A DNA stretch of 64,000 nucleotides from positions 372,001-436,000 of the forward strand of contig NZ_JAIQYZ010000001.1 of assembly GCF_020164495.1 (NCBI RefSeq). The letters run 5' to 3'. Below the pieces are notes generated by a model. It was not told the DNA's origin and made no database searches. It was given only the letters and a program-made list of their open reading frames with translations. Shown here in pieces: positions 51,067 through 61,650 of this stretch. This DNA is from Psychroflexus lacisalsi. Lineage in GTDB: Bacteria > Bacteroidota > Bacteroidia > Flavobacteriales > Flavobacteriaceae. The translations under genes and the position numbers were made by a program. How positions within the stretch are numbered: the first letter of the stretch is position 1; each line of letters begins with the position of its first letter.

Positions 51067-53583
51067 TTAGAATCTTAATCTGAAAACAAAATTAGGAGTG
51101 AAGTCTAATCCGTTTTGTGTGAAGCTCTGGATAGTTTGAGCTTCATCCAGCAAATAAAATTGATTATAAACATTGGAATTACCTAAAACATTCCACATAG
51201 AAAATCCAGCTAAAGCCCTGACTTTATTAAAAATACGGAAGGTGTAGGTAGAGGAGAAGTCTAGCCTGAAATAGTCTGAAAGCCTTCTAGAGTTTGGAGC
51301 TTCAAACAGAATTTCCTCTGGATTTAGTGGTTGATCATCAGAAGGAAAAGTAACTGTAACTCCAGAATGCCAGTTGAAACCAGCCGATAATTTTAATCCA
51401 CTTTGCTCGTAAGTTAAGCCAGTTGAGATGACATGCCTTATGTCCAAATTACTGTGAAATCTTGAAGGTTGAAGCGATTCAAAATTATAGTTGTTTTCTG
51501 ATAAACTGTAACTTACCCAGCTGGATATACGGTTTAAATTTTTATTTATTAAAAAGTCAATTCCTTTCACTTCATAGTTACCGTGATCTTGTGAGAATCT
51601 AAATTGATTTTGAAATCCCTGGCCTTGTGTCGTGATTCCTTCTACTTTTTTATAAAATAAATCCACATTGAAAAACCAGCTTGGTTTGATATAATTGAAA
51701 CCAGTTGAAATCTGTTGACTTTGAATTATTGGGCGATTGTCCAGGTTGGATAATACCCATCTTCGATTTTCAACTCCCAGGAAGTCTGTCTGTAAATCAA
51801 TAACCTGGGAAGTGACTTGGCTTTTTTCTTCAGCAAGAAGTTCAAGGAATAAATTATCAAAAAGTTTATAACTAAGATTGAACCTTGGTTCTATTACTAT
51901 TTTTTCAAATTTCGAAAAGTGATTCAAGCGTCCTCCAAGTTGCAGATTAAGTCTGGAATTCTCCGACTGGTAATTGACCTGTGAGTAAACACTATTGGTG
52001 AGGATTGAATTTTGAGTTCTTCTAAAGAAGCCCGGATTATCAATTTCTTCAGAATTTAAAATTCCAGTTTCATTCAATTGATAGCCTGCTTCTAACGCAA
52101 TGTTTTTATAAAGTTTTGTTTTTAGATTTACTCTTAATCCTATTTCTTGTACTTCGTTAATTTGCTCAAGTCTTTGTTGATCCAAAAAATCCGCATTTAT
52201 TGAATTTTGATTGTATTTGGATCCATAAAGCTGTATTTCAGTGTTGGTTGTTTTTGTCCAGTTCCTTTTGTAATAAATTCCACCGGCAACATTCGTTTGG
52301 TTTAAATCACTAGATCTTGTGTTTACACTATTTCTTTCAATATCAAATCTGTTTAATGAAAATTCATCATGACTAAAAAACAAATTAGCTTTTAAATAAT
52401 CCTTATTAGAAAGTTTGTTTTTATAATTAAAACTTGAATCATAAAATGAAAAATCATTGTTTTGCTGAGAGACCTGAGAGTCCTGATTTGTAACTTCTGT
52501 ATTTTGAAATGTTTTATCAAAATAACGGTCATAAGTAGGGCTTTCCCAAAGGGAATTGATGGACTTTCTAAATGAAAATTCAACGGAAGAATTTTGACTC
52601 AAGGGGGACTCGATAATAGCATCAGTATTAATAAGATTCAAACCAACCTCTGCTTTAAAATCACTGACAATAGAATCATTGGTTTGCATATCTATAAGAC
52701 TGGATACCCCGTCCCCAAATTTTGATGAAGTGCCATTTTTGATAAGTTTTACTTTTTTGGTCATGTAAGGATTGAAGGCTGAAATCATACCAAAAAAATG
52801 AGAAGTATGATACATTTTAATTCCATCCCATAGAATTAAGTTTTGGTCATGAGTTCCACCTCTCACATTTAAATAAGAGACGCTTTCATTTCGGCTTGTT
52901 ATTCCTGGTAAAGACTTTAGACTGAGAAGTACATCTGGCTCCACCAAACCCGGTAAAAGTCCAAAATCTTCATAATTGATTTCTAAAATCCCGGATGTGA
53001 ACTTATTAATCCCACTGGTTAAAAAATTTTTAAGGAGAACTTCATCTAGAACTTCATAAAATGGGGAAAGTTCAAAAACAGGACAACACTCCTTTTTTCT
53101 AGTATCTATCTGTAATTGTTCGGGTATATAGCCCTCTGCGCTTACAAACACATCTACTATAGATGCATTTATTGGAATTTTGAATTGACCATTACTATCA
53201 GAATGGAATATATACTTGTTTATTTTAAGATAAGAATCAGCTATTCCCTTTTTTGTAAGCTTATCTTTTGCGGCAATACAAAATATTTTAAACCCAGATT
53301 TGGGTATAATTAAAATATTTGATTCTGAATGGTATGAATAATCGAAAGGAGTAACCTCTCTCAAAAACTGAAGATTTTCTTCTAAGCTTGATAATTTCTT
53401 TTGCCTGGGCACAATGATATTGTCTATTTCATCGTCTGCGTATGAAAAAAGGACATTGTGTTCCTTTTCTAATGTATTGATGAAATATAATAATTCATTT
53501 GCTTTTTCAATCTTTTGAGCATTTGAAATGAAGGATAAACCAAATGCGAAAAGAATAAATAAAAATCGGTTTATAAATTTCAC
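51067..53583 (-). CDS. TonB-dependent receptor with N-terminal STN signalling domain
   Basis: An 838-residue outer-membrane receptor. Signal peptide to about residue 22, then an STN/secretin-like domain (about 25-105; NVLFSYADDEIDNIIVPRQ), which passes signals to FecR-type anti-sigma factors. A carboxypeptidase-regulatory-like beta domain (about 105-165), a plug (about 185-300; LNVRGGTHDQNLILWDGIKM) and a beta barrel ending in aromatic FVFRLRF follow. No SusD-type gene follows, so the ligand is more likely a siderophore, peptide or metal complex than a glycan. It overlaps the FecR gene by 4 bases. Confidence 0.93.
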   Translation of the reverse strand: MKFINRFLFILFAFGLSFISNAQKIEKANELLYFINTLEKEHNVLFSYADDEIDNIIVPRQKKLSSLEENLQFLREVTPFDYSYHSESNILIIPKSGFKIFCIAAKDKLTKKGIADSYLKINKYIFHSDSNGQFKIPINASIVDVFVSAEGYIPEQLQIDTRKKECCPVFELSPFYEVLDEVLLKNFLTSGINKFTSGILEINYEDFGLLPGLVEPDVLLSLKSLPGITSRNESVSYLNVRGGTHDQNLILWDGIKMYHTSHFFGMISAFNPYMTKKVKLIKNGTSSKFGDGVSSLIDMQTNDSIVSDFKAEVGLNLINTDAIIESPLSQNSSVEFSFRKSINSLWESPTYDRYFDKTFQNTEVTNQDSQVSQQNNDFSFYDSSFNYKNKLSNKDYLKANLFFSHDEFSLNRFDIERNSVNTRSSDLNQTNVAGGIYYKRNWTKTTNTEIQLYGSKYNQNSINADFLDQQRLEQINEVQEIGLRVNLKTKLYKNIALEAGYQLNETGILNSEEIDNPGFFRRTQNSILTNSVYSQVNYQSENSRLNLQLGGRLNHFSKFEKIVIEPRFNLSYKLFDNLFLELLAEEKSQVTSQVIDLQTDFLGVENRRWVLSNLDNRPIIQSQQISTGFNYIKPSWFFNVDLFYKKVEGITTQGQGFQNQFRFSQDHGNYEVKGIDFLINKNLNRISSWVSYSLSENNYNFESLQPSRFHSNLDIRHVISTGLTYEQSGLKLSAGFNWHSGVTVTFPSDDQPLNPEEILFEAPNSRRLSDYFRLDFSSTYTFRIFNKVRALAGFSMWNVLGNSNVYNQFYLLDEAQTIQSFTQNGLDFTPNFVFRLRF

Positions 53584-54488
53584 TTAGCTTTTAAAACGAC
53601 CTTTTCTTTCTTTATTTCATAGGTCAAATCTAGTGGCAAAGTAATAGATTTTAATGCATTTTCTAAGTCATTATGAATAAAACTTCCTGTATATTGTCTC
53701 GACATGTCAACGGTTGAAGTCTCGAAGTCAACGTCATAGTAATTTTTAAATTCTTTTAGAACTACATCTAAAGAGGTGCTCTTCAGAATTGTAGAGTTTC
53801 TTTTCCAATCTGGAGATTTGAAGACGGTCTTACTTTTTGAGATATTTTTGTTTTTCAAAGTAAAATGATTCTTTTCTTCAAGGACGTAAATTCTATCATC
53901 AACGTTTATTTGAACAGAGCCTTCGTAGCAAGCAACTTCAAAGCCATACTTTCTTGCTTTTACATTAAATTGAGTGCCTAAAACCTGTATTTTTCCGTAG
54001 GATGTTTCTACAGTGAATTTTTTTCCTTTTTCAACATCAAAAAAAGCTTCACCTTCCAAAGTCAAATTTCTTTTCGTATCCCAAGCAGAATTATCGAAAG
54101 AAATTAGTGAATTTGCGCTTAGATTAACGATCGAATTATCAGGTAGATTAATAGTTTGTGTCTTAGCAACTTCTGTCTTGAAGGTTTTAATGTCAGAATT
54201 GTTATTGAATATTTTGAAAATAGAAAAGGCCACAATTAAAATTGCAGCAACTGCTGCTAAGTATTGATATCTGATTTTATATGACGACGATTTTTTGGCT
54301 TTAATGTTTGACTCGATGTTTTTGAGAGAATCATTAGTATTGAAATCAGGGCATTTAAAATATTTCGCTTTTTCTGAAATCTTCATATAAGAATCATAAT
54401 CGTCTAACTTTTTAAACGCTTTTAATTCTTCCTCCGTTAACTCGTTATTGAGCCACTTATTAATTAAGTATTCTTTTTTAATATTCAT
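53580..54488 (-). CDS. FecR-type anti-sigma factor
   Basis: A 302-residue inner-membrane protein: an N-terminal cytoplasmic region (LINKWLNNELTEEELKAFKK), a membrane helix near residues 75-95 (YLAAVAAILIVAFSIFKIF), the FecR domain (about 110-210; QTINLPDNSIVNLSANSLI) and the C-terminal DUF4974 (about 235-300; LDVVLKEFKNYYDVDFE), which has the STN fold and meets the receptor. It holds the ECF sigma factor until the receptor is occupied. Start and stop overlaps show that sigma factor, FecR and receptor are one operon, 44 bases after the sigma gene. Confidence 0.95.
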   Translation of the reverse strand: MNIKKEYLINKWLNNELTEEELKAFKKLDDYDSYMKISEKAKYFKCPDFNTNDSLKNIESNIKAKKSSSYKIRYQYLAAVAAILIVAFSIFKIFNNNSDIKTFKTEVAKTQTINLPDNSIVNLSANSLISFDNSAWDTKRNLTLEGEAFFDVEKGKKFTVETSYGKIQVLGTQFNVKARKYGFEVACYEGSVQINVDDRIYVLEEKNHFTLKNKNISKSKTVFKSPDWKRNSTILKSTSLDVVLKEFKNYYDVDFETSTVDMSRQYTGSFIHNDLENALKSITLPLDLTYEIKKEKVVLKAK

Positions 54489-54532
54489 ATTAACTTGACA
54501 ACTAAACCATTAATTCTCCTACTTATCATTTG

Positions 54533-55057
54533 TTAAATTCCCTCAATTTCTTTACGTAATTGCTCCAAAGCTGTATATATTCTTTTTTCCACAGCCTTTT
54601 TTGATATACCAAGAATTTCTGCTATTTCCTTGTGTTTTTTACCTTCAACTCTATTCAAAAGAAAGGCAACTCTTTTTTCTTCAGTGAGATTGGATATAGC
54701 TATTTGATATTTGTCTAAATATTCTTTCTCTTCCAAAACAAATTGCGGATCCTGATTATCAGAGTTTTTTTGTTTAAAATTTAACTCATAATTCAAAACA
54801 ACTTTCTTGTGTTTGATTACGTTCAACGTGGTATTATTGGCTACAGAAAATAAGTAACTTTTAGCCTTTCCTGGAACAATTTTTTTACAATTTTCCCATA
54901 ATTTTAAAAAAGCTTCCTGGACCTTGTCTTTTGGATTATGCTCCTCGCCAAATTTGTAATAAATAAAATCGTGTAAATCTTTGGCGTATCTTTGGTGAAG
55001 TTTTGAAAACACTGATTTTTCACAGCAATTTTTGACAAGTGAATGAGCCTTTTTCAT
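54533..55057 (-). CDS. ECF RNA polymerase sigma factor, FecI-like
   Basis: A 174-residue sigma-70 family factor with region 2 (LHDFIYYKFGEEHNPKDKVQ, EAFLKLWENC, KAKSYLFSVANNTTLNVIK) and region 4 (LTEEKRVAFLLNRVEGKKHK, EIAEILGISKKAVEKRIYTA). No region 3, so it is an ECF type. It heads the sigma-FecR-receptor operon. The 78-base gap to the divergent lipoprotein gene holds the candidate target element at 55089-55115. Confidence 0.95.
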   Translation of the reverse strand: MKKAHSLVKNCCEKSVFSKLHQRYAKDLHDFIYYKFGEEHNPKDKVQEAFLKLWENCKKIVPGKAKSYLFSVANNTTLNVIKHKKVVLNYELNFKQKNSDNQDPQFVLEEKEYLDKYQIAISNLTEEKRVAFLLNRVEGKKHKEIAEILGISKKAVEKRIYTALEQLRKEIEGI

Positions 55058-55088
55058 AAGAGCTAAAAATATAAAAAAAACTCTTTGA

Positions 55089-55115
55089 GTAGGGTTTTTA
55101 ATATTTAAGTTGTCT
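55089..55115 (+). promoter_or_regulatory. candidate ECF promoter before the two-repeat lipoprotein gene
   Basis: GTAG (55089-55092) and TTGTCT (55110-55115) are 17 bases apart, with TTTT and ATTT also matching at fixed places in between. The same element, with the same spacing, lies before the fasciclin gene at 55849-55875. TTGTCT ends 20 bases before the ATG. The GTCT part resembles the GTC core of ECF -10 sites. Confidence 0.6.
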
Positions 55116-55135
55116 AATAAACGAATAAATGAACA

Positions 55136-55786
55136 ATGACCAAACTCTACAAGTATACATTATTATTTTTGATAATTATTTTTTCAGGATGTTACAATGA
55201 CGATAATCAAATCGTAGAAGCCTTAGATGCATCCCATAACTCTTCTGAATTGACTTCCGTTTTAAAGTCAATAACTTCACATGATGCCTCCTTTGATGAT
55301 CAAGTTGATAATACCTCATGTTTTAGTTTGGTATTTCCTTATCAATTAAAAGTCAATTCAAACATTAAAACATTTACGTCTGCCGAAGAACTTTCATACT
55401 TAGATGTTTCTGATGAAATTGAAATTCTATATCCTGTTTCTATTGCGCTTAAAAACTATCAAATTTTTGAAGTGAATTCGACTTCAGAACTAAATTCACA
55501 TAAATTGTCATGTGAAAGAAGTCTTGATATTGAGCCAAATTCCTGTGTTGATTTGGTTTATAATCTCACAATCAAACAATTCAATGAAATACACGGTGTT
55601 TTTAAAACTTTTGACCTTACCAATAATAAAGAGGCCTTTATGTACTTTGAGGAACTTCACGATAATGATGTTTATGAAATTCAGTATCCTATATTACTTC
55701 AGGATAGAAATTCTGAAAACACAACTGTAAATTCTAATTCAGAATTTATCAACACTTTCCAATCCGTAGTTAGAAATTGTGATTGA
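55136..55786 (+). CDS. lipoprotein with two related cysteine-bounded repeats
   Basis: A 216-residue lipoprotein (lipobox to Cys19, IFSGC, then YNDD, an export-like acidic signal). Residues about 61-131 and 136-215 look like two copies of one module: C-F/V-x-L-V-F/Y near the start, a middle TFTSAEEL-like (second copy TFDLTNNKEAFMYFEEL) helix, then an EI(L/Q)YPxxL segment and a final cysteine. I do not recognise a named family. It is divergent from the ECF sigma gene and carries a promoter element shared with the fasciclin gene. This suggests it belongs to the same regulon. Confidence 0.75.
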   Translation: MTKLYKYTLLFLIIIFSGCYNDDNQIVEALDASHNSSELTSVLKSITSHDASFDDQVDNTSCFSLVFPYQLKVNSNIKTFTSAEELSYLDVSDEIEILYPVSIALKNYQIFEVNSTSELNSHKLSCERSLDIEPNSCVDLVYNLTIKQFNEIHGVFKTFDLTNNKEAFMYFEELHDNDVYEIQYPILLQDRNSENTTVNSNSEFINTFQSVVRNCD

Positions 55787-55848
55787 ACGTAATTCTTATT
55801 AAGACGCTCTCTTGTTTTGTTAAATTGATATTAAATAAAAATTTTCAG

Positions 55849-55875
55849 GTAGTAGTTTTTTGATTTGTATTGTCT
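55849..55875 (+). promoter_or_regulatory. candidate ECF promoter before the fasciclin gene
   Basis: GTAG (55849-55852), 17 bases, TTGTCT (55870-55875), with the same TTTT and ATTT positions as the element at 55089-55115. TTGTCT ends 29 bases before the ATG at 55905. No Bacteroidota TANNTTTG -7 box was seen in this gap. Confidence 0.6.
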
Positions 55876-55904
55876 TATTGATGAACAATTAAACATAAAA
55901 GACT

Positions 55905-57731
55905 ATGAAATTTTTATCAAAATTATTGCTTTTGGCAATTTTTGTTACTGCTTCGGTATCATGCTCAGACGATGATGATGCTCCAGTAACCCCTCCTTCT
56001 GGAGATCCGACAATTGCTGATTTAGTAACAGAAAATGACCAATTTTCTTCATTACTAGCGGCTCTTGAACGTACAAATTTAGTAACTCCATTTGTTGGAG
56101 GAAGTGGAAACCTTACCGTGTTTGCACCTACTAACAATGCATTTAATGCATTCTTACAAGATAATGGATTCTCAAGCCTTGAAGAAGTACCAGAAGATCT
56201 TTTAAGTGAAGTTCTTTTAAACCATGTTGTTAATGGTAGAATTTTAGCTGCAGATTTATCCACAGGTTACGTAAACTCATTAGGTAAAGGTGGTGCGTCT
56301 GAAGCTGAACTTAGTCTATTTATTAACACAGAAAACGGAGTAACTGTTAATGGTGTGTCTAGTGTCACTACTCCAGATATTGTGGCGACCAACGGTGTTG
56401 TGCACGAAGTAGACGCAGTTATTGGTTTGCCAAGTGTTGTTACACAAGCCCTTGCAAATCCAGAATTTTCTACTCTTGTAGCTGCTTTACAGCGTGCAAG
56501 TACAGAAACTACAAATTATGTAGATATACTTTCAGGTTCTGCTAGTTCACCTTTTACAGTATTTGCTCCAACGAATGCCGCTTTTGAAGATTTATTAGCT
56601 GCACTTGGGGTACAAAGTTTAGAAGAAGTTGCTCCTGAAACTTTAGCTACAGTACTTGAATACCACGTGATTGCAGAAAGTAATGTGAGATCTGGAGACC
56701 TTTCTACTGGATTATCTGCGATAACACTACAGGGTGAAGATTTAGTATTCGATTTATCTGATGGTGCACAAATTAGCGATGCTTCAACAGTGAATGCAAA
56801 TATTGCCGTTGTAGACGTTCAGACTAATAATGGTGTAGTTCACGCCATTGATAAAGTATTATTACCAAACGAAATCCTTGATGCTATAGATCCAACTATT
56901 GCCGGTCTTGCAATGATGAATGATGATCTTTCTAGTCTTGTCGCTGCTCTGGAGTATACAGGGTTAAATGAAGCTTTAGCTGATAGAGCTGAAGAATATA
57001 CTGTATTTGCTCCGACTAATGCTGCCTTTGCAACATTTCTAGATGGAGCAGCTCTTGAGGATCTTCCTGTGGAAGTTGTTACTCAAGTTTTATTGAATCA
57101 TGTCCTTACAGGGACAGCACTTTCTACTGATTTAAGTACAAGCTACACTAATTCTCTTGCTACTTATGGTGACACAGATGATAATTTAAGTTTCTACATC
57201 AACCTTGATGATGGTGTAAGACTTAATGGTGTCTCAAGCGTTACAGTAGCAGACAACGAAGCTGCAAATGGAGTAGTACACATTGTAGATGCAGTTATTA
57301 CTTTGCCAACTGTTGTAACCTTTGCCACAGCAGATCCAAATTTTTCAGCACTGGCAGGAGCGCTTCAAGCTGCTGATACAGATTTTGTAAATGTACTTTC
57401 AGGAACTGCAAATTCACCATTCACAGTTTTCGCTCCAGTCAACTCAGCTTTTGATGCTATTACAGTACCGGGTGAACCAGCGCTTAGTGCTGTGCTTAGT
57501 CATCATGTTATTGCAGAATCAAATATAAGATCTGGAGATTTGACAGACGGTGCTATTGTAGAATCTTTTGAGGGAAGTGATATCACAGTTACACTTCCTG
57601 GAACTGGTGAGAATATTGCTGATCTTACAGATGGAGCAGGAAACACAGGAATTGGAGTAATTGCTGTTGATGTGCAAGCTACCAATGGAGTGATTCATGC
57701 TATAAATACAGTATTGTTACCAGCAGAATAA
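55905..57731 (+). CDS. surface lipoprotein with four fasciclin domains
   Basis: The 608 residues start with a lipoprotein signal to Cys20 (TASVSC), followed by SDDDD, the acidic pattern of Bacteroidota surface lipoproteins. Four FAS1 domains follow at about 35-165, 170-320, 325-455 and 460-605. Each has the (T)VFAPTN(N/A)AF motif (VFAPVNSAF in the last). Domains 1 and 3 are alike and so are 2 and 4, so a two-domain unit was duplicated. FAS1 proteins mediate cell adhesion or bind small ligands. A terminator follows. Confidence 0.93.
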   Translation: MKFLSKLLLLAIFVTASVSCSDDDDAPVTPPSGDPTIADLVTENDQFSSLLAALERTNLVTPFVGGSGNLTVFAPTNNAFNAFLQDNGFSSLEEVPEDLLSEVLLNHVVNGRILAADLSTGYVNSLGKGGASEAELSLFINTENGVTVNGVSSVTTPDIVATNGVVHEVDAVIGLPSVVTQALANPEFSTLVAALQRASTETTNYVDILSGSASSPFTVFAPTNAAFEDLLAALGVQSLEEVAPETLATVLEYHVIAESNVRSGDLSTGLSAITLQGEDLVFDLSDGAQISDASTVNANIAVVDVQTNNGVVHAIDKVLLPNEILDAIDPTIAGLAMMNDDLSSLVAALEYTGLNEALADRAEEYTVFAPTNAAFATFLDGAALEDLPVEVVTQVLLNHVLTGTALSTDLSTSYTNSLATYGDTDDNLSFYINLDDGVRLNGVSSVTVADNEAANGVVHIVDAVITLPTVVTFATADPNFSALAGALQAADTDFVNVLSGTANSPFTVFAPVNSAFDAITVPGEPALSAVLSHHVIAESNIRSGDLTDGAIVESFEGSDITVTLPGTGENIADLTDGAGNTGIGVIAVDVQATNGVIHAINTVLLPAE

Positions 57732-59487: not shown

Positions 59488-61650
59488 ATGAACTTTGATA
59501 CGATGAAACGATACAAATTAAAGAACAATCTGGTTATTCTATTTTTGGTGACTCTGCTAGCCGTAACTTCCTGTAGCTTCACTGCAAAAAATTATGATGA
59601 AGACTCAGATAAAGATCAAATCCTTATAGAACTCATTACCCACGTAATTGAGCAAGGACATTTTGATATGAAAGAGCTTGATGATGATTTCTCTCAGGCC
59701 GTTTTTAAGGATTACATTAAAGGATTAGATCCTATAAAAAGACATTTTCTGAAAAGTGATTTTGAAGATTTCAAGGCTTTTGAAACTCAAATTGATGATC
59801 AAATCAAAAATAAAAATCTTGTTTTCTTTGACTTAACAGTAAATCGCTATAAAAAGCGAATGGAACAAACAAAAGACTTTTACTTAGAATTGTTAAAGAA
59901 TCCCTTCAATTTTGAAGACAAGGAAACTATCAATACTGATTATGAAAATGCGGATTATGCTGAAAACATGAAAGAATTAAAAGAGAGATGGAGACAACAA
60001 TTTAAATTCTCTACTCTATCCACTTTTCATGATTTAAAGCAGGAACAAAATCAAAAAAATGAAAATGATGAAGATGTTGAAAAAAAATCTGATGCCGATT
60101 TAGAACAAGAAGCACGAGAAATCACCAGAGAGTCTATCGAAAATTATTTCGACACCATGTCAGATTTGGAACGTAAAGATTGGTTTAGTTTATACGTCAA
60201 TTCTTTCGTAAGTCAGTTTGATCCACATACAAATTATCTCGCACCTCAGGATAAAGACAGGTTTGATATCTCAATGTCTGGAAAACTAGAAGGGATTGGT
60301 GCACGACTTCAAAAACAAAGAGACAATGTAAAAATTGTTGAAGTTATTTCTGGGGGTCCGGCTTGGACTAATGGAGAATTGGAAGTTGGAGACCTTATCC
60401 AGAAAGTAAAACAGGAAGATGAAGAGGAAGCTGTAGATATTCGGGGGATGAGATTAGATGATGCAGTAGATCTTATCAAAGGTCCAAAAGGAACAAGAGT
60501 TGTACTTACAGTGAAGAAAGTAGATGGAAGTACCCAGTCCATAAATATTGTAAGAGATGTGGTTGAGATTGAAGAAACTTACGCAAAATCTTCAACTGTA
60601 AAAAGAAATGGAGAGCTTTTTGGAATCATAAATCTACCGAAATTTTATTTCGATATGCAAAACTATGATGAAAGAAATGCGGCTTCTGATATTAAAAAAG
60701 AACTTGAAAGATTAAATGAAATTGATGCTAAAGGTCTTGTGATAGATCTAAGAAATAATGGAGGTGGTTCTTTATCTACAGTAGTAGATATTGCTGGTTT
60801 CTTCATTGATAAAGGTCCTGTTGTACAAGTAAGAGATGCGAAAAATAATACTGAAGTTTTAAAAGATTCAGATTCTAATGTTATATGGGATAAGCCACTT
60901 GTCATACTTGTAAATGAACTTTCAGCTTCAGCTTCAGAAATTTTGGCTGCTGCAATGCAGGATTACGAGAGAGCTGTTGTGATAGGTAGTAAACAAACTT
61001 ATGGTAAAGGAACCGTTCAAAATGTCGTTGATTTAAATAGGTGGATGAGAAATAGTTCCTTTGGTGATATGGGAGCTTTGAAAATTACTACACAGAAGTT
61101 TTATAGAATTAATGGAGGTTCTACACAGCTAAAAGGTGTAGAAAGTGATGTTGCCGTTCCAGACCGTTACTCTTATATTGATATAGGTGAAAGAGATTAT
61201 GAAAATCCAATGCCGTGGGACAAAATTGCTCCGGCAAATTACGATGTCTGGAATGGGTATTCTAATTTGAATCAAGTGATTAAAACAAGTAAAAAGCGTT
61301 TATCATCTAATTCGCAAATACAGTTGATAGATGAAAATGCTAAGTGGATCCAGTCTCAAAGAAATCAAAATAATTTTAGTTTGAACTATGAAAACTATAG
61401 TGAAGATATAGCTAAAGTAGAGGAGATGTCTAAAAAGTTTGAAAAAATAGACAATTACAGTTCGAACTTAACTTATGAATCTCTTCCTTATGAAGCAGCT
61501 TTGATGTCTAAGGACTCATCATTAACTCAAAAGAGAAAAAGATGGCATGAAAGTTTATCAAAAGATGTTTATGTGGAAGAAGCTATTCAGGTACTTCAGG
61601 ATTTGCAAGTAGATAAAAATTCCATCAAACTTGCTGCTAGGAAAAACTAA
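59488..61650 (+). CDS. C-terminal processing protease Prc/Tsp, S41 family, lipoprotein
   Basis: A 720-residue tail-specific protease. The start carries a lipobox (LLAVTSC, ATG at 59488, with ATG at 59503 as alternative). An N-terminal helical domain, a PDZ domain (about 250-340; GIGARLQKQRDNVKI, GDLIQKVKQ) and the S41 catalytic core (about 350-560) follow. The core has VIDLRNNGGGSLSTVVDI, the catalytic serine region NELSASASEIL and the lysine in GKGTVQN. The C-terminal helical domain is also present. It trims or degrades envelope proteins in the periplasm. Confidence 0.95.
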   Translation: MNFDTMKRYKLKNNLVILFLVTLLAVTSCSFTAKNYDEDSDKDQILIELITHVIEQGHFDMKELDDDFSQAVFKDYIKGLDPIKRHFLKSDFEDFKAFETQIDDQIKNKNLVFFDLTVNRYKKRMEQTKDFYLELLKNPFNFEDKETINTDYENADYAENMKELKERWRQQFKFSTLSTFHDLKQEQNQKNENDEDVEKKSDADLEQEAREITRESIENYFDTMSDLERKDWFSLYVNSFVSQFDPHTNYLAPQDKDRFDISMSGKLEGIGARLQKQRDNVKIVEVISGGPAWTNGELEVGDLIQKVKQEDEEEAVDIRGMRLDDAVDLIKGPKGTRVVLTVKKVDGSTQSINIVRDVVEIEETYAKSSTVKRNGELFGIINLPKFYFDMQNYDERNAASDIKKELERLNEIDAKGLVIDLRNNGGGSLSTVVDIAGFFIDKGPVVQVRDAKNNTEVLKDSDSNVIWDKPLVILVNELSASASEILAAAMQDYERAVVIGSKQTYGKGTVQNVVDLNRWMRNSSFGDMGALKITTQKFYRINGGSTQLKGVESDVAVPDRYSYIDIGERDYENPMPWDKIAPANYDVWNGYSNLNQVIKTSKKRLSSNSQIQLIDENAKWIQSQRNQNNFSLNYENYSEDIAKVEEMSKKFEKIDNYSSNLTYESLPYEAALMSKDSSLTQKRKRWHESLSKDVYVEEAIQVLQDLQVDKNSIKLAARKN

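Follow-up and report, generated by a model that had tools for sequence, protein, structure and literature searches.

A FecI/FecR-like sigma factor locus of Psychroflexus lacisalsi with a conserved candidate promoter before its sensor operon and predicted surface lipoprotein genes

Introduction

Cell-surface signalling systems of the FecI/FecR/FecA, FoxI/FoxR/FoxA and PupI/PupR/PupB kind combine an extracytoplasmic function (ECF) sigma factor, a FecR regulator with a FecR_C domain and a TonB receptor whose periplasmic part has a signalling-domain fold, and FecI/FecR pairs are common in Bacteroidota. Here we analyze a locus with the same components in Psychroflexus lacisalsi (Flavobacteriaceae), located in a 64,000-nucleotide stretch of contig NZ_JAIQYZ010000001.1 (positions 372,001 to 436,000 of the forward strand; hereafter the window, to which all coordinates refer), and a promoter-like box, GTAGGA-N15-YTGTY, that recurs around the orthologous sigma genes. 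The best explanation, to which we assign a probability of about 0.78, is a FecI/FecR/FecA-like circuit that would feed back on its own sensor operon and drive surface lipoproteins.

The locus shares with the Fec, Fox and Pup systems the three signalling components and a putative sigma promoter before the transcription unit of the receptor. It differs from them in that (i) the receptor has an extra SusC-type N-terminal domain, (ii) fecR shares a boxed operon with the receptor gene, whereas the sigma gene stands apart, and (iii) surface lipoproteins appear to be added as targets. According to the accessible text on Escherichia coli, fecIR is transcribed there with sigma-70 and fecA with FecI (PMC9249621). 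What would be new in the present system is the output wiring, in which the sigma factor feeds back on fecR and the receptor gene and makes surface lipoproteins, with the first steps resembling those of Fec, Fox and Pup.

The SusC/SusD polysaccharide utilization loci of Bacteroides controlled by ECF sigma/anti-sigma pairs are similar in having a sigma/FecR pair and a TonB receptor that carries both a signalling and an NTE-like domain. In contrast to them, the window locus and its five flanking genes contain no SusD family member and no recognized glycan or other substrate enzymes by Pfam; the lack of a SusD-type partner had already been noted in a preliminary description of this DNA made from the sequence alone. 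SigP/PorX-PorY of Porphyromonas gingivalis and SM6 of Flavobacterium psychrophilum likewise represent ECF control of surface or secretion functions in Bacteroidota, but the SigP motif, C(T)AAA..., and the CGT box of SM6 are unlike the GTAGGA box, and the accessible accounts of both describe no FecR/receptor relay (PMC4800418, PMC9723704). As to a link with outer-membrane stress, the available text of two papers on outer-membrane assembly in flavobacteria or Bacteroidota mentions neither FecR nor fasciclin (PMC12045153, PMC12578637).

Few promoters of FecI/FecR pairs are known in Bacteroidota. According to the accessible part of a 2020 study, no motif was known for any ECF sigma factor of B. 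thetaiotaomicron (PMC7366714), and the F. psychrophilum map, in its accessible part, contains one ECF-type motif, SM6 (PMC9723704). The available portion of PMC11501099 gives no sigma motif, and in the openly accessible text that we examined, GTAGG-type boxes are not described for sigma factors of this kind.

Organization of the locus

The locus consists of a receptor, fecR and sigma gene on the minus strand and two divergent genes on the plus strand, and the coordinates of all five open reading frames (ORFs) agree with the preliminary description. The genes, the boxes and an associated repeat are as follows.

51067 to 53583, minus strand: TonB-dependent receptor/transducer, 838 aa (Pfam Plug, 2.5e-7; signal peptide by eye)
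53580 to 54488, minus strand: FecR-type sigma regulator, 302 aa (Pfam FecR, 4.1e-20, and FecR_C, 4.5e-9)
54533 to 55057, minus strand: ECF sigma factor, probably FecI-type, 174 aa (Pfam sigma70 r2 and r4_2)
55136 to 55786, plus strand: lipoprotein with tandem repeats, 216 aa (alignment and model; no Pfam or NCBIfam match)
55905 to 57731, plus strand: fasciclin (FAS1) lipoprotein, 608 aa, with four FAS1 domains (Pfam Fasciclin, 4e-94, four stretches)
54497 to 54522, minus strand: box before the fecR-receptor operon, GTAGGA-N15-TTGTC (with a counterpart at 79 of 80 orthologous loci)
55089 to 55114, plus strand: box before the lipoprotein gene, GTAGGG-N15-TTGTC (equivalent in 57 of 58 lipoprotein-bearing loci)
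55849 to 55874, plus strand: second-class box preceding the fasciclin gene, GTAGTA-N15-TTGTC (sequence and alignments)
55820 to 55835, plus strand: TTAAA-N6-TTAAA direct repeat, putative activator site, 13 nt before the fasciclin box

The fecR and receptor genes overlap by 4 bases, and the sigma gene lies 44 bases upstream of fecR and has no such box of its own in the window. The preliminary description had proposed an element GTAG-N17-TTGTCT before the lipoprotein and fasciclin genes. Both copies (55089-55115 and 55849-55875, plus strand) are real; the conserved element is wider than the one proposed, and a third copy, the best supported one, had been overlooked before fecR. The latter was found by scanning the window with one mismatch allowed (10 matches, shuffle mean 3.76). 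TTGTCT is the local form of a downstream half whose family consensus is TTGTTWTAT.

Conservation of the box around sigma orthologues

We compared the best 80 of 134 loci with sigma orthologues (58-94% identical to the window sigma factor), the closest named one being that of P. longus CAK8W (94%). A FecR homologue follows the sigma gene in all 80. The pattern [GT]T[AG]GG[AG]-N15-[TC]TGT[TC] was scored on both sides of the sigma gene, and the level expected by chance was obtained from first-order Markov re-draws (200 rounds for the sigma-fecR gap). The gap contains a box in 79 of 80 loci, compared with a re-draw mean of 0.065 and a maximum of 1; the one exception, L060, carries a closely similar form. 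The divergent region contains the box in 74 of 80 loci (mean 1.16, maximum 4), a slightly generous count since it includes sigma-54-like sites. When spacers of 12 to 17 were allowed, 73 divergent boxes had exactly 15; with N15 set, there were 74. Most of them (67/74) lie 9-64 nt from the sigma gene and seven at 172-342 nt, and they are present in 57 of the 58 loci with a lipoprotein detected by tblastn. The preliminary description had suggested a comparison of orthologous loci, and the element indeed recurs there with fixed spacing.

Columns outside the scored pattern are conserved as well: T7-T10 (the TTTT that follows GTAGGA, more pronounced in divergent copies), the TAT at 27-29 and, again in divergent copies, T17. 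The resulting consensus, GGTAGGAATTTTT-N5-TNAATTGTTWTAT, looks like the general ECF promoter form GGAAC...GTC. With 74 divergent boxes and 86 on the fecR side, the number of natural instances comes to about 160. The fecR box of the window stands 8 nt from the fecR start, compared with 20 nt in 37 of 79 orthologous loci; with such a short gap, the transcript may have almost no leader, or the actual start of translation may lie further inside the gene.

In seven loci (L081, L085, L096, L100, L102, L108 and L112), two boxes are found 65-76 nt apart within one sigma-fecR gap. The distal divergent boxes of L081, L085, L096 and L102 (about 320-342 nt from the sigma gene) read similarly to the sigma-54 consensus, TGGCACG-N4-TTG, as do strict-pattern matches in genomes G187, G193 and G204; these may be overlapping promoters or chance similarities.

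A strict form of the family pattern was scanned in 149 family genomes and in 198 class genomes, 192 of them outside the family. It gave 57 matches in 38 of the 149 family genomes, a count made slightly generous by the sigma-54-like sites, compared with one match for the reversed control, and no match in the 198 class genomes. Since the copies in the P. lacisalsi genome are variants and a locus assigned by title to Salinivirgaceae (L105) also has variant boxes, absence of the strict form does not mean absence of the system. Among 30 readable family loci with the strict pattern, 14 are the sigma system itself. In the other 16, the match precedes exported-looking ORFs in 12 cases (judged by eye: lipoproteins, an OmpA-like protein and long secreted proteins) and a 68-aa ORF in one; another lies seemingly inside a transporter gene (L140), and two have no ORF nearby.

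Paralogous systems and the reader of the box

Contig 12 of the same genome carries a diverged copy of the system near ffh, which comprises a receptor, FecR, a sigma factor 50% identical to that of the window and a divergent lipoprotein of 348 aa. Its box before the lipoprotein gene reads TTAGGG-N15-TTGTT, and a variant, GTAGGG-N15-GTGTT, was identified by eye in the fecR gap; unlike in the window locus, a box is also found before the sigma gene itself (L178, 9744-9870). Elsewhere in the genome, a single further FecR locus exceeds the FecR_C cut-off and another match falls below it; the corresponding stretches (L179 and L180) contain no box. The ffh gene lies within the examined stretch of 51 of the 80 orthologous loci and is absent from that of the seven closest ones (L037-L043), so the window locus has probably moved or is an additional copy.

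We then compared 30 sigma-homologue loci, 27 of which were analyzable; they come from the 9 genomes that have loci among the matches listed. Both boxes are present in all eight loci whose sigma factor is at least 56% identical to that of the window, which is included in the count. At 40-55% identity (14 loci), six have both boxes, seven have none, and one, on contig 12 of P. lacisalsi, has the divergent and the pre-sigma box. Below 31% identity, the box occurs in none of five loci.

In genomes with at least two two-box loci (11 loci, 5 genomes), agreement over 17 core positions is 94% for boxes of the same locus, compared with 68% between paralogues, some of the core positions being fixed by the pattern; only 2 of 96 re-pairings of the boxes are equally good. 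Paralogous pairs match in kind, GTAGGAATTTT..TTGTT occurring with its like and GTAGGGTAAA..CTGTT with its like. Such locus-specific pairs are hard to explain unless each sigma factor reads its own pair, which points to the neighboring sigma factor as the likely reader of the box. The proposal of the preliminary description that the sigma factor reads the element thus gains support from both the boxes in 79 and 74 of 80 loci and the pairing in paralogues.

Receptor and lipoproteins

Receptor residues 22-216, modelled from 32 sequences (predicted local distance difference test score, pLDDT, 80), form two domains. Model residues 6-80 match the signalling domains of FoxA (6i97; Z 8.9, 70 aligned, 2.2 A), FecA (1zzv; Z 8.6, 75 aligned, 3.3 A) and PupA (2a02; Z 8.4, 72 aligned, 3.5 A); the secretin InvG, which belongs to the same fold class, scores Z 8.3. 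Model residues 76-156 match carboxypeptidase-D regulatory and SusC NTE domains (Z up to 12.4; 11.8 for the SusC NTE 9hfj). Pfam recognizes STN in only 4 of the 32 receptor members and FecR_C in 28. Judged by the model, the receptor is a FecA-like protein with an N-terminal STN-type signalling-domain fold, in agreement with the earlier proposal of a cell-surface signalling locus. Its parts are taken as a signal peptide, an STN-type domain, a carboxypeptidase-D-like or SusC-NTE-like domain and a plug, the remainder being the presumed barrel.

The 216-aa lipoprotein has no Pfam, NCBIfam or PDB-sequence match. Its model (pLDDT 87.7) consists of two tandem beta3-alpha-beta3-alpha repeats, and the two halves align with each other (hhalign probability 92%, E 5e-7). 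No solved fold matched clearly in structure searches, the top hits having E 0.17 with Foldseek and Z 5.0 with VIA (54 aligned, 3.3 A). A new fold is not claimed, although nothing clear was obtained from the PDB. Apart from the lipobox Cys, four Cys are invariant in an alignment of 29 short members; by eye, the contig 12 paralogue is without the first of these repeat Cys. In other genera the lipoprotein forms the N-terminal part of proteins of up to 811 aa, and Laminin_G_3 was found in one of four long or paralogous homologues scanned. A profile search detected it in 18 of 395 class genomes (12 of the same genus or family, P. lacisalsi included, one strong match outside, G346, and five weak partial ones), and a single-sequence search in 62 of 149 relatives. 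Among the 80 sigma loci, tblastn detects it in 58; three of the 22 others (L069, L083 and L089) carry a diverged one, and the remaining 19, some of them cut by contig ends, show none. A receptor match is present in 17 of these 19.

Four loci of Mesonia and Salegentibacter (L103, L104, L107 and L110) have no lipoprotein, and the box is weaker in L103 and L104. About 100-150 nt past the divergent box, all four contain a conserved TGTTTAGGGGGA-like stretch and a GGCCGT-type hairpin with an end rich in T, which may be a remnant or a small RNA dependent on the sigma factor.

The closest solved relatives of the fasciclin protein are periostin and TGFBI. Acidic residues follow the lipid Cys in both lipoproteins (C-YNDDN in the 216-aa protein and C-SDDDD in the fasciclin protein). 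They resemble export signals proposed for B. fragilis, SDDDD, and F. johnsoniae, SDDFE (PMC5080379, accessible text), so that both are likely exposed on the surface, as the preliminary description had supposed.

A second class of promoter before fasciclin genes

The fasciclin boxes, mostly from Psychroflexus and Aquimarina, have a different upstream half, GTAGTA, GTAGCA or GTTCGA, as well as GTTAGA or GTAAGA, which fall outside the counted pattern. They are combined with an upstream repeat. The compound form, TTAAA-N6-YTAAA followed by the N15 box, occurs 21 times in 20 of the 80 loci and not in three Markov re-draws, and its spacing is identical in all 21 instances although 13 to 15 were allowed. 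The window holds exactly one, at 55820. With its period of 11 bp, the TTAAA-N6-YTAAA repeat resembles OmpR/PhoB-family sites. In L045, which shows no detected lipoprotein, the TTAAA repeat and GTAGGA stand together before a fasciclin gene beside the sigma gene.

As a genome-wide search pattern, TTAA-N7-YTAA-N14-GTnnnA-N15-TTGTY was rejected as unspecific (21 matches and 14 in the control, 249 genomes). Ten of these 21 matches, the only ones given weight here, have a GTAG[TC]A or GTTCGA core, a choice biased by having been made after the alignments were seen; four precede fasciclin genes, four precede DUF4397 genes, and for two no gene was found. The DUF4397 cases (L188, L189, L190 and L197) are either at a great distance from the sigma gene, which their genomes have elsewhere, or on a different contig, and two of the four proteins carry a type IX secretion system (T9SS) sorting tail.

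Of the regulon with two lipoproteins that the preliminary description proposed, the part concerning the 216-aa lipoprotein gains support, its box being conserved; the fasciclin box belongs to a sub-class with an extra site, which makes control by the same sigma factor less certain. We consider the fasciclin gene a probable co-activated target of this sigma factor, less certain than the fecR and lipoprotein targets.

Proposed circuit

By analogy with the Fec, Fox and Pup systems (PMC9249621, PMC11637429, in their accessible parts), the receptor, FecR and the sigma factor would form a trans-envelope relay. An event outside the cell, sensed at the receptor, would change its periplasmic signalling domain, FecR would then be processed, and the sigma factor would bind RNA polymerase and start transcription at GTAGGA(A/G)TTTT..TTGTY boxes. 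The predicted targets are (i) the fecR-receptor operon, the best supported of them, which would close a feedback loop on the sensor, (ii) the divergent tandem-repeat lipoprotein gene, and (iii) the fasciclin gene, whose different and probably weaker -35 half would be backed by the TTAAA-N6-YTAAA repeat, maybe the site of a separate activator. The output would be cell-surface protein rather than a SusD-coupled uptake set. The support for the circuit is comparative, namely, boxes, spacing, gene order, locus-specific pairing and domain fold.

If this is true, the set likely controls itself and part of the outer coat of the cell through one switch. One sigma clade would gain a sharp, testable promoter with its natural variants, along with feedback wiring and a target family of uncharacterized lipoproteins, and the matching box variants of the paralogues would help in reading sigma specificity and in obtaining orthogonal promoters. 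It is conceivable, though doubtful, that the circuit is a surface-remodelling system of Flavobacteriaceae, in which the transducer senses the state of the surface or of attachment (e.g., lipoprotein or fasciclin occupancy) rather than a nutrient, exerts feedback both on its own genes and on adhesive lipoproteins via a dedicated ECF promoter, and has been duplicated into parallel circuits with insulated box variants within one cell.

Alternative explanations

Several observations weigh against the proposed circuit. In the P. lacisalsi genome, the string is not enriched: the exact GTAG-N17-TTGTCT, for which the preliminary description had suggested a genome search, gives 6 matches compared with 9 for the reversed control, looser patterns are no commoner than their controls (12 vs 20 and 15 vs 17), and the strict family pattern has no match. 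Thus, the string alone proves little. The window copies depart from the consensus used at three positions in the lipoprotein box and two in the fasciclin box. The divergent box is absent in 6 of the 80 loci, several of the seven distant ones are sigma-54-like, and in L051, L067 and L110 the next ORF is ffh rather than an exported protein. The sigma factor misses the cut-off of its top NCBIfam match, TIGR02985, which we take to be the FecI-type sigma family of Bacteroidetes, by 12 bits (114 vs 126.4), and among the 22 sigma loci that reach 40% identity, seven show no box. Fewer than half (21) of the 52 fasciclin-like ORFs listed, some of them second in a row, have the compound form. The last base (C/T) of the fecR copy is kept by the fasciclin box in 20 of 21 cases, an agreement that is weak because it follows lineage, and the -10 half fits TAnnTTGY in 24 of 74 divergent copies, 9 of 79 fecR copies and one of the three window copies. 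The box is beyond chance, as far as these comparisons tell, through its position and conservation and not through its rarity in the genome. GTAGG-N16-YTGTY, a pattern that excludes the fasciclin copy, has 15 matches there; ten lie inside ORFs, two have no start nearby, and the three before a start codon are the two in the window and one at the related second ECF locus.

The TAnnTTGY fit is the ground for regarding the boxes as SM5-like or primary-sigma promoters, with the GTAGGA half being a transcription-factor site and not a -35 element. SM5 was mapped in F. psychrophilum with TTGY in the -10 region, a feature common to both, and its accessible text gives no GTAGGA half, the motif logos being left out of this comparison (PMC9723704). 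The window lipoprotein copy, TAAGTTGT, conforms to TAnnTTGY. Yet the TA half is mostly not kept in the family (the 24, 9 and one copies counted above), the spacer is rigid at 15, the box type follows the sigma paralogue, and TAnnTTTG, which the preliminary description had named as the alternative box, shows no excess in the 70 nt after the divergent box (3/74 vs 5/74 shuffled). We therefore regard such promoters as very unlikely. Split control, in which the local sigma factor reads the fecR and lipoprotein boxes and the fasciclin gene, adjacent by accident, is read by another ECF sigma factor or the ffh-linked paralogue, is unlikely to a lesser degree. The deviating -35 half (GTAGTA, GTAGCA, GTTCGA and others) with its extra site, the same compound promoter before DUF4397 genes remote from the sigma gene and the second, 50% identical sigma factor in the genome all agree with it. 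It is opposed by the L045 hybrid directly beside a sigma gene and by the retention of N15 and, within the limits of lineage, of the final base found in the fecR copy. Moreover, a sigma homologue of at least 56% identity is present in all eight genomes in which the core compound promoter precedes a fasciclin or DUF4397 gene, a count confined to genomes with this promoter; in G184, which has the core motif with no gene found, the best homologue reaches 30%.

The role of the divergent lipoprotein could also be read differently. SusD, BtuG and HmuY are lipoproteins that act as lids or capture ligands, and an analogous receptor subunit would make the locus an uptake system. The lipoprotein, receptor, FecR and sigma genes do travel together, with the lipoprotein in 58 of 80 loci, and surface lipoproteins complexed with TonB transporters are common in Bacteroidota according to the accessible text of PMC12578637 and PMC6143338. 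Such a partnership is nevertheless improbable in view of the 19 sigma loci that show no lipoprotein, 17 of them with a receptor match, of the large homologues and the Laminin_G_3 domain, unlike a simple lid, and of the lack of recognized substrate enzymes in the five flanking genes.

Neighboring genes

By Pfam, the flanking genes encode an M14 peptidase, a thioesterase, a 101-aa protein with no match, SurE and a tail-specific protease. Nothing recognized in the neighborhood hints at iron or glycans, no Fur-box search having been made. The tail-specific protease (TSP_NTD, PDZ, S41 and DUF3340; 59488-61650, plus strand) is separated from the fasciclin gene by 1.8 kb. In the signalling of Pseudomonas, FoxR is degraded by the protease Prc, as described in the accessible text of PMC11637429; the adjacency of the tail-specific protease to the locus may be due to chance.

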